Positions 4,186-10,458 of a stretch of DNA of 64,000 nucleotides are shown piece after piece (within the stretch, counting starts at the first letter, position 1; every line of letters begins with the position of its first letter). A program made the position numbers and the translations under genes. This DNA is from Salinivenus sp. (GTDB taxonomy: Bacteria; Bacteroidota; Rhodothermia; Rhodothermales; Salinibacteraceae): assembly GCA_018609755.1 (NCBI GenBank), contig JAHENZ010000049.1, forward strand, positions 1 through 64,000, written 5' to 3'. The notes below the pieces were generated by a model. The model worked only from the letters and a program-made list of their open reading frames with translations, was not told the origin of the DNA and ran no database searches.

Positions 4186-4478
4186 TCGGACGGAAATCGT
4201 TGAGCAGAGCACAAGGCGGCCCCCGTTCCGGCGATTGACCTCGTTCCGAAACTGGAGGCACAAAGCATCCAAAATACACCCGGCCCCGCGCGATGTTCAG
4301 TACTGCTGGAAACGCCCAACCGACGCCTCAACTCCCGTCAACGGCCCCGCTCTCGCCCAGCGAAGCCGACCCCGCCGGGCCGTCGTGGCCCGGAGTCCTG
4401 TGTCCTCTCCTCCCTGGCGACTGGAAACAACTTCTCCAATCATTTCTCAACGGCGGGGGAGATGCGGGCGTAGCGGTC

Positions 4479-5312
4479 TTACCATTCTTGCACCTTGTAC
4501 TTCGCTGCTCTCATCCACGAATAGATGCGGCGGGCAGGTTGATACAGGGTTCCATTCACGAACTGGTACGAAGATAGCTGGTCTCGAATTCCCTCCGCCT
4601 CTACCTGCTGCTGCAAACGCTCGGCTGCAGCCTCATATAAGACCCGATCCCACCGGGTGTGGGCTTCGATCAGCGATCGGTCCTCCGGGGACATCTCTTC
4701 AAACCTGGGTTTCTCGTGATTTTGATTGGAGCGCGCGTAGTACAACGTTGACCAATTGAGGAACTGGGCCATCAGGAGCAGAGACGCATCAAACTGCTCA
4801 AGGAGACCAGCAACGACACAGTGATCGAGATGCTGAACGGCAGCCTCACATTCCTCCTCCCCAATCTCTCCGTATGGGTGCGATTCGCCGATTCCCGATA
4901 GTGCCCTGACCATTCCATTGTCGGTGATCCGAAACCGGCCATCCGTGAGGAACGATCGGAGGGTCCCAATCGGCTCCGGGTCGTCCCCCCGATTGGTGAG
5001 GTGGAGACGCCATTGCTCCGGACGATTTCGGTAATAGTGATACAGCGAGTGCACCCGCCGGGCGGGCTGCCGAAGCATCGTGATGTATCGACAGGGACGA
5101 CTGAGATGCTCATGCAGTCCATACCGGAAGTGCCCAGACACGATGCGAAGCGACGGGGAGTGGTTGCGGACGTGATCTGCACAAACGCTCAGGTCGAAGA
5201 TTCCGTGCAGGTCTACCCGTTCGTCCTCTGAATAGTTGAGAGACACGATCTCATTCAGAAGGGTCATACCCCCCGTCTTATGAAGGTGGACAAAAATGGT
5301 CAGGCGATTCAT
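4479..5312 (-). CDS. Sulfotransferase family protein
   Basis: N-terminal MNRLTIFVHLHKTGGMTLLNEIV resembles the PAPS-binding P-loop-like motif; YITMLRQPARRVHSLYHYYRN resembles the 3'-PB motif. Confidence 0.8.
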   Translation of the reverse strand: MNRLTIFVHLHKTGGMTLLNEIVSLNYSEDERVDLHGIFDLSVCADHVRNHSPSLRIVSGHFRYGLHEHLSRPCRYITMLRQPARRVHSLYHYYRNRPEQWRLHLTNRGDDPEPIGTLRSFLTDGRFRITDNGMVRALSGIGESHPYGEIGEEECEAAVQHLDHCVVAGLLEQFDASLLLMAQFLNWSTLYYARSNQNHEKPRFEEMSPEDRSLIEAHTRWDRVLYEAAAERLQQQVEAEGIRDQLSSYQFVNGTLYQPARRIYSWMRAAKYKVQEW

Positions 5313-5522
5313 GGATCTTCGACGCTCGGACGATGCCGTTGAATAGGAGGCTCATAGCAACCCAGGACACCGTCGAGTGCCGTGCTCCTCTGGATCCAGC
5401 TTTTATAAGAATTGAATACCCATCCCCTATCTGAGAGATTGTCGACCGGCTCCTGGACGGGCATTTCGTGACGATGTGCAGTGTAGCTTGGGGGACAAAC
5501 AACACTGCGGGAGAACGTTGGA

Positions 5523-5698
5523 GCTCAACCAAAATGGGCGAGAAAACGCCCAAAAGAATCAGACACGACCAGTCGGCATCGGCCCGCAAAGTTTCCATTC
5601 ACCGGCGTCGCCACCTGGATTGGTGAAGCCGATCCCGCTTGGCCGACCTCGCCCGACAGCGTCACCGGCCAAATTCCATCTTTAGCACAGGGTTGTGA
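5523..5698 (-). repeat. Degenerate attC-like site downstream of the 5703..6509 gene
   Basis: Minus strand: candidate R'' (TCACAAC) and R' (GTTGAGC) flank a core (GTGGCGACGCCGGTGAATGGAAAC) shared with the 189-bp sites at 8492 and 9091. Arm pairing is weak. Confidence 0.4.
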
Positions 5699-5702
5699 GG
5701 TT

Positions 5703-6509
5703 CTATTTTTCTCGCCGTCGTAGTGTCTTAACCTCTCCATTCGGCTCGATGCCGTATATCCACTCCTCGGCCACAATTGTGTGGGGAAGACTCGAATCAC
5801 GTCGAAGTACCATGAACACATCAGTCTCCGTCGGCAGACACGTTCGGACTGCAGTCGAGACACTCGCCTTCGCATTTCTTGGAAACCTGCCCATCGGAAT
5901 CACCTCATTGTGGAGGCGCTCACTCTGGAGTATGGATCCTGTACTGGCGTCGATCTTAACTCGAAGATCCCCACCCAACAATATCTCATTCTCAGGGTCA
6001 GGGAATATGTAGGTTGTTAGCACACTGTCGTCCCACGGGTAGTCGGCTACAATAACTCCGTATTCGTATTTCTCCATCACCGCACTCAACTCGTCTCCGG
6101 CTTCTCGTTCACTAGCCGATGCAGCTCGCCCGAATCTGTAGATCCATCCTTGGTTTACCGTAGAGTCTTCAACTTCAACGTCTGTCACTTCCCGGGCGTC
6201 GTTGAGCTGAGCTTCTGCCCTTTGTTCAAAGCGATCCCCACTCCAATTGCCGTAGGCAACGCTCCACCCCTTACTCGTTTTTCGAGCCAGACAAGGTGAG
6301 CCTTCAACTGAGTGTCCCTGTTCTATCAACGCCTCATCAGCACGGTCGCAGACAATCTCATAGAGGGCAAGCCAGCGACCGGCGTTGCGAATCCGCGTGA
6401 GTTTTTCCTCAGAGGGAGACGTATCAGGACAATCTTGAGTTTGAGCTTGGACGGTGAAAGGAGTGCCCCCATACACTACCAACAAAACTGCTATGAGTAG
6501 TCGTATCAT
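5703..6509 (-). CDS. Hypothetical secreted protein (cassette ORF)
   Basis: 268 aa with N-terminal signal peptide (MIRLLIAVLLVVYGGTPFTVQAQ); lies between attC-like sites. Confidence 0.7.
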   Translation of the reverse strand: MIRLLIAVLLVVYGGTPFTVQAQTQDCPDTSPSEEKLTRIRNAGRWLALYEIVCDRADEALIEQGHSVEGSPCLARKTSKGWSVAYGNWSGDRFEQRAEAQLNDAREVTDVEVEDSTVNQGWIYRFGRAASASEREAGDELSAVMEKYEYGVIVADYPWDDSVLTTYIFPDPENEILLGGDLRVKIDASTGSILQSERLHNEVIPMGRFPRNAKASVSTAVRTCLPTETDVFMVLRRDSSLPHTIVAEEWIYGIEPNGEVKTLRRREK

Positions 6510-6545
6510 TTTGTGTTTTTCGGTAAGCGCTTGGGAGTGGAGTGG

Positions 6546-6671
6546 TTCATAACGTAGAACTTACCTGCGAAAAGCCGCGACACTTCGTTCGGAATCAACC
6601 AATGGAGCGTCGAACGTCTGTACCAAACAAATCCGTACCCGCATTTTCCTGGTTGATCACAGGCTTATGAA
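6546..6671 (-). repeat. attC-like site (126 bp)
   Basis: Minus strand TTCATAAG (4 nt after upstream stop) ... GTTATGAA; inner arms partially complementary (ACCAGGAAAATGCGG vs ACCTGCGAAAAGCCGCG on the reverse complement). Confidence 0.6.
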
Positions 6672-6674
6672 GCT

Positions 6675-7949
6675 CTACTCCTCAACTTTCGTGTTCGGAT
6701 GCATGGTCCGAATGAACAGGAGTCCGTCCATCACCTCCGTCCAGTCCGCGCGCATCTCCTCGTAGCCCAGCGGGCGGGCCACTTGGGGTTTGGAAAGCCA
6801 GTGTGCGTTCGGCACACCCGTAAAGTCGAGAATCGAATAATCGTGAGAAAGGGTGCCCAACAAAGCTTCGAGACTACCCGCACTCGGCTCTTGGATGGTT
6901 TTCGGATCCTGATCGTCCCAATAGAACGCTCCATACTTTCCCCCATGCGCCGTGATTCCAAGAGTGTAGATACCTCCCTCAAACGTCTTGGCCAACACGT
7001 CGCCCATCGACGTTTGCCCATCGTATGACCGATCAGCATTGATGCGTTCGATCAAACTGAGATTGCGGACGCCGTGCGAGCTGGCAATCCACACGATCAA
7101 TTTCTTTTCAGGGTAGGCCGTTTCTGCCAACCATACCAGGTTGTGCGCCATCTGTCGATTTCGGGGCTCGTAGCTCCGCTGGAAGCCGGTTTGCACTTGC
7201 GCGTTTACGTTTTCGAGCATGAGCGCCCAGAACGCATCCTGAGACGACCCACCCTTCAGAGGTTGGATCAACCTGTCCATTCGTGCAATGAACTGGCGGT
7301 AGGCGGCTGTATCGCGCGCCAGAGCGAGCGGATTCGTCAATTGCTGACGGAGGGTCTGCTCGAACTGCGTTCCCTCTGCCACATCGGCCCACTGATTCTG
7401 ACGCTGAAGATGGCTCTTAAGCCGAGCTATGAAAATGGAATCGCTGGGAGGACGCAAGGCACCGTCGATCCCTGCGAGTTGAAGGGGCGTCTCCGTGGTT
7501 TGCGTCTCGGCGTAGTAGCGCAGCACCGGGCGGACCTGCTTGCTCTGTGCCCATGGCCGTGACAAATTGTTCGTGGCCGCCTGAAGATATTCTTCGAAGG
7601 AAGAAGCGCGCTTGGTGGCCAACCGAAGATCATAGAGACCGCTTTCGAAGGCCAGCACGTCGAACCCCATCTCTTGATGCAAGAACTTGACGAGCCGACT
7701 TTTCGCCCGGAACGCCGTTCCGTCTCCGTGGGTCGGCTCCCCGAGAATGACGATCCGCCGATCCCCGATGTGCTGCTTGAGCGGCATCAGATCCGAAAAG
7801 GTCTCCTCCGCAGGCTCCAAAGTGCGAAGAGGGAGCACCCGTTCACGGAGATCTGCAACTTTATCGCTCGCCGAAAGGGAATCGGTTTGCGCAGGACTCT
7901 CGACAGGCAGTAAAAGCACGAAGGCGAGAATCGGCAGAATGCGAGACAT
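6675..7949 (-). CDS. Erythromycin esterase family protein, secreted (cassette ORF)
   Basis: RRIVILGEPTHGDGTAFRAKSRLVKFLHQEMGFDVLAFESGLYDLR, LIVWIASSHGVRN; signal peptide; RBS-like AGGAG upstream of ATG. Confidence 0.85.
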   Translation of the reverse strand: MSRILPILAFVLLLPVESPAQTDSLSASDKVADLRERVLPLRTLEPAEETFSDLMPLKQHIGDRRIVILGEPTHGDGTAFRAKSRLVKFLHQEMGFDVLAFESGLYDLRLATKRASSFEEYLQAATNNLSRPWAQSKQVRPVLRYYAETQTTETPLQLAGIDGALRPPSDSIFIARLKSHLQRQNQWADVAEGTQFEQTLRQQLTNPLALARDTAAYRQFIARMDRLIQPLKGGSSQDAFWALMLENVNAQVQTGFQRSYEPRNRQMAHNLVWLAETAYPEKKLIVWIASSHGVRNLSLIERINADRSYDGQTSMGDVLAKTFEGGIYTLGITAHGGKYGAFYWDDQDPKTIQEPSAGSLEALLGTLSHDYSILDFTGVPNAHWLSKPQVARPLGYEEMRADWTEVMDGLLFIRTMHPNTKVEE

Positions 7950-7993
7950 AGTAGGACTCCTGCTCTGAGAAAGAACGCTATGGGGGAAGGGAC

Positions 7994-8106
7994 TTATAAC
8001 GTGGGAATTCAGCCGCGACGGGCCCCGAACGAGTGAAGAGAGCCCAGAACATGCCAGTTCTTCAAAATGGCTGCGGCCCGTCGTCGGCTGTCATGCTGGG
8101 TTATGG
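7994..8106 (-). repeat. attC site with canonical architecture
   Basis: Minus strand: CCATAAC (R'') - 10 nt - AGCCG[A]CGACGGGCC (L'') ... GGCCCGTCGCGGCT (L') - 10 nt - GTTATAA (R'). 14 bp pair with a single extrahelical A. Confidence 0.85.
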
Positions 8107-8135
8107 CCACAGCAACCGTAGGCTCATCGCAACGC

Positions 8136-8495
8136 TCAATCCACAGACTGTGGCGGAGAAATCTTCTCGTCTCGCTCAGAATCGGAATTGTACAGGTACA
8201 ATGCTCCTCCCGCTGCTCCAACTAGAAGTACCTGCAGCACCAATAAATCAGTGGCAATTTGGGCTTCGTCTGATTCGATCCATGAGCCGCCCTTTTCACC
8301 ATGCCTGACGTCGTTGTAGGAGCGGACATAGGACATCGGTTGCTGATAGATTGGACTCCACATTATCTCCCCAGTTGACTCAACGCGCCAGGGGCATAAA
8401 AACACAACCACTAGGATGAGCCCCGAGATCGCTGTTGCCACCGCCGTGTTCTGTCGATCATTCATTCTGTTTAGAGGGTTACTCCCAGTGAGCAT
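8136..8495 (-). CDS. Hypothetical membrane protein with two predicted TM segments (cassette ORF)
   Basis: 119 aa; ATG lies inside the R' core GTTATGC; alternative start MNDRQ at 8465. Confidence 0.6.
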   Translation of the reverse strand: MLTGSNPLNRMNDRQNTAVATAISGLILVVVFLCPWRVESTGEIMWSPIYQQPMSYVRSYNDVRHGEKGGSWIESDEAQIATDLLVLQVLLVGAAGGALYLYNSDSERDEKISPPQSVD

Positions 8496-8680
8496 AACGA
8501 TTTAGCTGAGGTGCGGGGGCGGGAAACCTTTAAACAGAACTCCAATCCGACAAAATGACAACGCTAGCCGGAATTTCCATTCTCCGGCGTCGCCACTCCC
8601 GTGCAGCGAAGCCGAAACTGCCTACAAGACCTCAACCGATGTCGGCAACGGCACTCCGTCATTTCTAGCGAGTGTTATGC
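8492..8680 (-). repeat. Long attC-like site (189 bp)
   Basis: Perfect terminal inverted repeat GCATAAC...GTTATGC on the minus strand; R'' abuts the preceding gene's TAG. Homologous to the site at 9091..9279. Confidence 0.7.
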
Positions 8681-9094
8681 CTACGAAGTGGATCGACTAC
8701 TCACTTCCTGGAGGAATGCTTTTGCTTCTCGTATCGTCTCGTCCGTCACGTCCAGCTTCAAGCTTTCCAGTCGGACCTTCGTATGATGGTTTGTCGATCG
8801 GAGATAGACGATAAAGGGAGCGTCTGCAATGCTGAGATGCAGATCGCCTAGAATGAGCACCGTCGGATCCCCCGCGGGAGAAACCTCACGAAGATACCGT
8901 TTGGACCTTGCAACATTCTCAGCTTCCTTTTCAACCGTTTTCAGAGGACTTTCAATTTCGCGGCTGAGTTCAAAAAATTCCGGGGTTTGGGACTGAGCTT
9001 GCAAAGGCAGAGCGAGAACAACGCCCAGTAGTAGCAGCAGAATCGTGCGCACGGCGAGAAGTGAGAGCTTGTTCTTGGAAGAATCGGTAGGCAT
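8681..9094 (-). CDS. Hypothetical secreted protein (cassette ORF)
   Basis: MPTDSSKNKLSLLAVRTILLLLLGVVLALPLQAQSQ... signal peptide; the longer ORF to 9226 reads into the attC-like repeat, so the 9094 start is preferred. Confidence 0.65.
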   Translation of the reverse strand: MPTDSSKNKLSLLAVRTILLLLLGVVLALPLQAQSQTPEFFELSREIESPLKTVEKEAENVARSKRYLREVSPAGDPTVLILGDLHLSIADAPFIVYLRSTNHHTKVRLESLKLDVTDETIREAKAFLQEVSSRSTS

Positions 9095-9279
9095 AACGTG
9101 GAAGCTGAGGTGCGGAAGACGGGAAAACGCACAAAAAAACCGGTCCGCCCGAAATAACAAGGCCAGTCGCAGTCCCCATTCACTGGAATCGTCACTTCCG
9201 GTGGCGAACTCGACCCCATCTGACAAACGTTGATCGATGTCGGCAACAGCCCTCCGACAGCTCTAGCGAAGGATTATAC
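9091..9279 (-). repeat. Long attC-like site (189 bp)
   Basis: Minus strand GTATAAT...GTTATGC; 10-nt spacers then AGCTG[T]CGGA opposed to AGGTGCGGA (reverse complement of the other arm); same length and core as 8492..8680. Confidence 0.7.
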
Positions 9280-9328
9280 CAACACTACGGATTCTCTCGG
9301 ATTCACAACTTTCAAGCTATCTGGTTTC

Positions 9329-9766
9329 TTACAGCTCTACGCGGAATGATGACACCTCCCCTACTACGCGCTCTCCGTCTTCCATGGTCGCATTCCACCA
9401 AGAAACGCTAATCTCGTCCTCGTCCTCATCCATCAGGATCTCCTCAAATTCCACTACCCTCTGCTCGCCGGAGGGAATCGGGTCTCCCTCAAGGTTTGGA
9501 GGGTCTGAAAAAATTATGACCGGAATCTGGCTAGTGCCAACCACCCTGACCCAAATTGGCTCACTGCGGCGATTCTTGATCACAATCGCTTTGTCCTGAA
9601 CGGTTGACCTCACACCGTCAGATCCAAATGACACACCGTCAGATCCAGATGATTCCTCTTCTCCAAACAGCGAGCAACCCGTTAGGAGGAGACCGCATAT
9701 CAGGACTGGTGCCAAGAAGCGACCTGGAAGTGAGAAGCGGGTGAGGTGAGGACGAGGGATGACCAT
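9329..9766 (-). CDS. Hypothetical lipoprotein
   Basis: 145 aa, lipobox LLLTGCSLFG; acidic C-terminus. Confidence 0.65.
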   Translation of the reverse strand: MVIPRPHLTRFSLPGRFLAPVLICGLLLTGCSLFGEEESSGSDGVSFGSDGVRSTVQDKAIVIKNRRSEPIWVRVVGTSQIPVIIFSDPPNLEGDPIPSGEQRVVEFEEILMDEDEDEISVSWWNATMEDGERVVGEVSSFRVEL

Positions 9767-10458
9767 GAGGTGATCCGAAGTTGTTAGGTAAAAGACCGTT
9801 TCATCCGGATAGAATACACGTTAGGGCGTGTCGATGACCACTGATCGTCGGGATAACATACAATTATATGGCGTACGGCAGATAGTATAGTCTCAGCCTC
9901 CGCCAATCGACGTGCCTCCCACTGCAATACGGAGACAGTGGATCCTATACGCTTGCTCTTGTATAGTATAAATTAAGGTTTTAATTTTTCAATGTCACGT
10001 CTCGCCCAACGTCTTCTCCCATGTCTCTCTCGCCGCCCATCTCTTCTCGGTCTCTCCTCAATCGGATCCATGCGACCTGAACGCGACTGACGTGCATGCC
10101 TTCCTCAATCACCTGGCCATCGATCGCAACGTTGCTGCGGGCACGCAGAGCTAGGCGCTCAACCGACCCGGACGACGGACCCACGAAACGACACCACCGC
10201 TCCCCCTCCCCCATCCAGCGCACGGTTCGCGAGACGGCTTCGGGGGCCGCCCTCCTCATCACCGGCGCTGACTCTGCACTGCGTCCATGATCATAGTTCA
10301 CGGAGAGCTGATTGTAGACCTGCGGGGTCACGCCTTCTCCAGTCGCCGCCTCCCCCTGCTCGCAAAAACCCCGCAAAACGCCCCCCTCCGCGCTTTCGGA
10401 GAGCTCCCGGTTTCCCTAGCTTAGGACAACCGGTCTGTTTCAGCCACTGTGCCTCCCT

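Follow-up and report, generated by a model that had tools for sequence, protein, structure and literature searches.

Integrons are bacterial gene-collecting devices that have been studied best in Proteobacteria. In the window analyzed here, a 64,000-nucleotide stretch of a Salinivenus sp. contig, argS (from 10459, plus strand) and hisD (below 4189, minus strand) bracket a minus-strand array of small genes and spacers. The initial annotation described five minus-strand ORFs, each followed by an inverted-repeat spacer in the gene-then-site orientation of integron cassettes. Finding no tyrosine recombinase nearby, it likened the array to a CALIN, a cluster of attC sites lacking an integrase. Are these spacers attC sites, and did the array ever have an integrase of its own? 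Our analysis indicates, with a probability of about 94%, that the array belongs to a sedentary chromosomal integron that was inactivated where it stands.

The spacers as attC sites

Similarity searches showed that the window spacers resemble repeated spacers that accompany integron integrase genes in congeneric species. Single-sequence DNA folding gave a clear attC hairpin at spacer C alone and, since it was uninformative elsewhere, we used comparative models. These were trained on 35 attC sites from the arrays of relatives, excluding the window: 18 sites of 113–132 nt (model R1, short class) and 17 of 187–193 nt (model R2, long class). In structural terms taken from PMC2727003 (extrahelical bases, central spacer, variable terminal structure), a training site is bounded by R'' (usually NNATAAC) and R' (usually GTTATNN). 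R'' is followed by about 9 nt, a 6-bp stem, an extrahelical A that never varies, and a second stem; after a variable loop comes the return stem, which a further 9 nt or so separate from R'. Standard pairs make up 88–89% of the paired positions, with many two-sided changes, against 31–44% when the partners are slid; these counts lean upwards, as the training sites were partly picked by pairing. Across the group, attC sites fall into two length classes of about 110–130 and about 190 nt, and the interior of the long class is conserved across species (L053–L063, L094–L100).

When applied to the 64-kb window, R1 and R2 recovered all five spacers at their exact ends and on one strand, which bears out both the gene-then-site arrangement and its reading as an integron-cassette array. 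The sites are, in the order of the array:

attC A, 9091..9279, minus strand: R'' GTATAAT degraded, R' GTTATGC; pairs kept R 5/7, L 11/14; R2 118.3 bits
attC B, 8492..8680, minus strand: R'' GCATAAC, R' GTTATGC, L box damaged; pairs kept R 7/7, L 10/14; R2 139.7 bits
attC C, 7994..8106, minus strand: canonical, ends CCATAAC/GTTATAA, extrahelical A; pairs kept R 5/7, L 14/14; R1 71.7 bits
attC D, 6547..6670, minus strand: degraded, R'' TCATAAG, R' GTTATGA, L'' damaged; R1 21.0 bits, E 0.012
attC E, 5510..5698, minus strand: degraded, R'' TCACAAC, R' GTTCTCC; pairs kept R 4/7, L 7/14; R2 100.7 bits
possible sixth attC remnant (uncertain), 4287..4386, minus strand: R2 partial match, 10.2 bits, E 0.11

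Judged by attC architecture, in which the R and L boxes pair and a base stays extrahelical, site C is canonical and the other four sites are degraded in part. The GCATAAC/GTTATGC-type ends initially described for the spacers are exact at site B, while the other four sites deviate from them. Site D scores below A, B, C and E and, at 21 bits, is a weak point of the inactivated-integron reading; in its right half it agrees with sites from L054 and L056.

It speaks for other intergenic repeats, or for palindromes that arose by chance between small genes with no relation to each other, that single-spacer folding returned a clear attC hairpin at C alone and that 4 of the 5 gene products have no Pfam family. 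However, four of the five sites reach E-values of 1e-14 to 1e-35 on one strand, beside the attI and intI sequences described below, and the rest of the 64 kb holds no comparable match; the single additional one is the weak, partial match at 4287–4386. Neither model matched when about 100 kb on either side of argS was searched in relatives that lack an array (L042, L044, L046–L050). Conversely, on plasmid R100, R1 found the aadA1 attC at its exact ends, beside the annotated intI1 and aadA1, with 40.7 bits (next match 7 bits). This reciprocal match indicates that the window sites are attC in the ordinary sense, and we regard an origin as unrelated repeats or palindromes as extremely improbable. 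A strict geometry scan of the 64 kb had site C as its one match; a loose version was discarded as uninformative, since it gave 15 matches in the window with 14.9 expected. Rfam at its gathering thresholds matched only one tRNA in the window.

The attI site, the cassettes and a decayed integrase gene

The element extends beyond 9766, where the array had been taken to end, up to an attI and an intI remnant reaching about 10284. A core sequence, ATATAATTRTAGGTTAT, is conserved upstream of complete intI genes in three relatives (G012, G015, G021) and, less exactly, in two more (G018, G005). Searched with up to 3 mismatches, it has one match in the window, with 0.01 expected by chance in 64 kb; this match, ATATAATTGTATGTTATCC, lies ahead of the first cassette, differs from the relatives' core at 1 position, and is read as the attI from its sequence. 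Its putative crossover sets the cassette borders:

attI core ATATAATTGTATGTTATCC, 9851..9869, minus strand: crossover G|TT at 9857|9856, ahead of cassette 1
cassette 1, 9097..9856, minus strand: lipoprotein ORF 9329–9766; borders from attI and attC A
cassette 2, 8498..9096, minus strand: secreted-protein ORF 8681–9094, start codon within attC A
cassette 3, 8000..8497, minus strand: membrane-protein ORF 8136–8495
cassette 4, 6553..7999, minus strand: erythromycin-esterase superfamily ORF 6675–7949; PF05139, 77.9 bits
cassette 5, 5516..6552, minus strand: secreted-protein ORF 5703–6509
intI remnant, N-terminal piece, 10068..10163, plus strand: about IntI residues 53–84, TAG stop
intI remnant, C-terminal piece, 10150..10284, plus strand: about IntI residues 236–280, different frame

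The five ORFs and five sites alternate in a single orientation, each gene followed by its attC. The cassette 5 gene has a 62% homologue in G006, directly after an attC, and the cassette 3 gene has homologues of 46–51% downstream of attC sites in three places, one of them in the genome that contains the window and on the strand opposite to its attC. These neighborhoods support the view that both are mobile cassette genes. The cassette 2 gene has a 39% homologue in G016. Cassette 4 encodes the sole product with a Pfam or NCBIfam match, the other four having none. Compared with the EreA/EreB resistance enzymes, it reaches 43 bits with the EreB model (cut-off 750) and is a member of the superfamily only, far from those enzymes; searching the family for this esterase returned no cassette homologue.

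The R' core GTTATG of sites A (9092–9094) and B (8493–8495) supplies the ATG of the next cassette's ORF. R' was rejected as a general source of start codons: besides the ORFs of cassettes 2 and 3, only a few other sites show this. The cassette 1 lipoprotein ORF contains a 21-bp tandem duplication at 9611–9652. Past the last clear attC lies a sulfotransferase-like ORF (4479–5312), followed by the weak match to the long-class interior at 4287–4386, the 3' end of which overlaps DNA common to G017; together they are possibly a sixth, older cassette.

Both intI pieces sit between attI and argS, on the plus strand as expected. The N-terminal piece matches TIGR02249 (E 6.1e-5) and is 50% identical (tblastn) to the IntI encoded on contig C127 of the same genome; in a tblastn search with that IntI, the C-terminal piece was found at E 2e-8 with 47% identity over 45 amino acids. 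Between the two pieces about 150 codons have been lost or can no longer be recognised, and the same is true of the two termini of the protein. The attempt to assign the remnant to one of two IntI lineages failed: the N-terminal piece and the attI resemble one lineage and the C-terminal piece the other. No intI match above the family cut-off was found within the window, and in place of a functional intI divergent from the array there are two fragments alone, with a stop and the deletion of about 150 codons.

The absence of a full-length intI agrees with the initial annotation, and software that needs one would label the array a CALIN, as it has five attC sites (at least two are called for) and no full-length integron integrase nearby. 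That description misses the decayed intI on the expected strand. An attI and intI fragments at the place expected for intI argue that the array lost its integrase in place. Strictly, a CALIN would have received its cassettes in trans, at a spot where neither a resident intI nor an attI had ever been present, and the complete intI on C127 could act in this way; yet the attI core and the intI fragments follow the expected order and orientation, and two relatives (G014 and G022) carry intI at the same place, so that we consider such an origin very improbable. The shortness of the intI remnant and its mixed resemblance to two IntI lineages are counterpoints to our reading.

For the inactivated integron, we propose the following history. 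An ancestral intI would have lain between attI and argS, divergent from the array, and its integrase would have added cassettes at attI through recombination at G|TT, with the attC of each cassette taking part as folded bottom strand. This mechanism is inferred for the array from the integron family. A large internal deletion, a frameshift and a stop codon would then have destroyed intI and fixed attI and the five cassettes in their present order, and mutation would now be eroding R- and L-box pairing in the attC sites. This order, with intI lost first and the sites decaying later, is likewise inferred. At the level of sequence, the comparisons establish the attC array, the attI, the intI remnant and the homology to arrays beside complete integrases.

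Integrases elsewhere in the genome and the argS region of relatives

A search for intI in the rest of the genome, as the initial annotation had proposed, found a complete copy on contig C127 (449.9 bits, cut-off 265). Contig C324 carries eight attC sites and further sites lie on C318, C122, C299, C88, C85 and C254; those on C88 (23425–27094, L098) form a second group of three decayed sites. The C324 sites keep 6–7 of 7 R pairs and 11–14 of 14 L pairs. As the window sites are less paired, the window array looks decayed and the C324 array maintained.

Three intI contigs from three genomes stop 0–4 nt from their attI crossover: C127 of the genome studied here (G000; L009:1), which ends exactly at it, C1 of G022 (L052:1) and C100 of G021 (L061:1). 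The array contig C324 ends at GTTATGC (L094:7110). A common core this short, some five bases, would not be expected to interrupt an assembly on its own, and one reading is that the first cassette after attI varies within the sequenced cultures. Such a mixture would suggest that the C127, G022 and G021 integrases are active.

The window array may not be frozen, if the C127 IntI still excises or moves its cassettes via the better sites. The contig end at the C127 attI crossover speaks for an active integrase, and this enzyme could in principle act on sites B and C, since C is canonical and B retains both R boxes. Against this, sites A, D and E are damaged and the attI–cassette junction of the window was assembled without a break. 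Continued mobility is a minority possibility that we consider unlikely, and we retain the frozen, inactivated integron.

We compared the argS region among relatives, represented by one genome per species, so that the states described are differences between species. Four states occur upstream of argS: an intact intI, a broken intI with an array, an array without intI, and neither. G022 has an intact intI directly upstream of argS, oriented as in the window. In G014, intI lies at the same place and in the same orientation but has an internal deletion, with an array behind it. In G019, an array starts some 260 nt away from argS, with no intI in view. G017, the closest species with an argS that is 93% identical, lacks both intI and array at this place and carries an intI on another contig. 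G014 and G022 share one IntI lineage, while the attI and N-terminal piece of the window resemble the other. It is conceivable, though improbable, that integrons of two IntI lineages have independently and repeatedly landed upstream of argS in this genus, and that the fossil array still serves the second, intact integron of its own genome as a cassette reservoir via sites B and C.

One genus outside Proteobacteria thus offers an argS-linked integron in intact, broken, intI-less and absent form, from which the order of decay of integrase, attI and attC becomes readable.

Comparison with known systems

Inactivated integrons are already known as a kind; the present case adds the variety of states seen at argS and the occurrence of such an integron together with a complete intI within a single genome. 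Our literature searches found no paper on intI pseudogenes with CALINs and none on integrons that names the family Rhodothermaceae. A complete integron has been reported, only as such, in Salinibacter ruber M1 (IntegronFinder 2.0 paper, PMC9024848). It belongs to the same bacterial group and, like the integrons described here, has an attC array, whereas the window intI is dead.

The window sites share with the aadA1 attC of R100 the order R'', 9 nt, 6-bp stem, extrahelical A, stem, return stem, 9 nt and R', but are 113–189 nt long with the core GTTATGC, compared to 60 nt and GTTAGAT. Like a CALIN, the array has attC sites and no full-length integrase nearby; unlike one, it keeps an attI and integrase fragments, which make its origin as a complete integron in place visible.

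A close parallel comes from Xanthomonas, where chromosomal integrons lie beside ilvD and intI has been inactivated by stops, frameshifts or large deletions (PMC12444791; Gillings and colleagues, as cited there). Both are sedentary, sit beside a housekeeping gene, and have lost intI while keeping the cassette array. The window array differs in belonging to another phylum, in its flanking gene, argS, in the complete intI and other arrays found elsewhere in the same genome, and in its two attC length classes.
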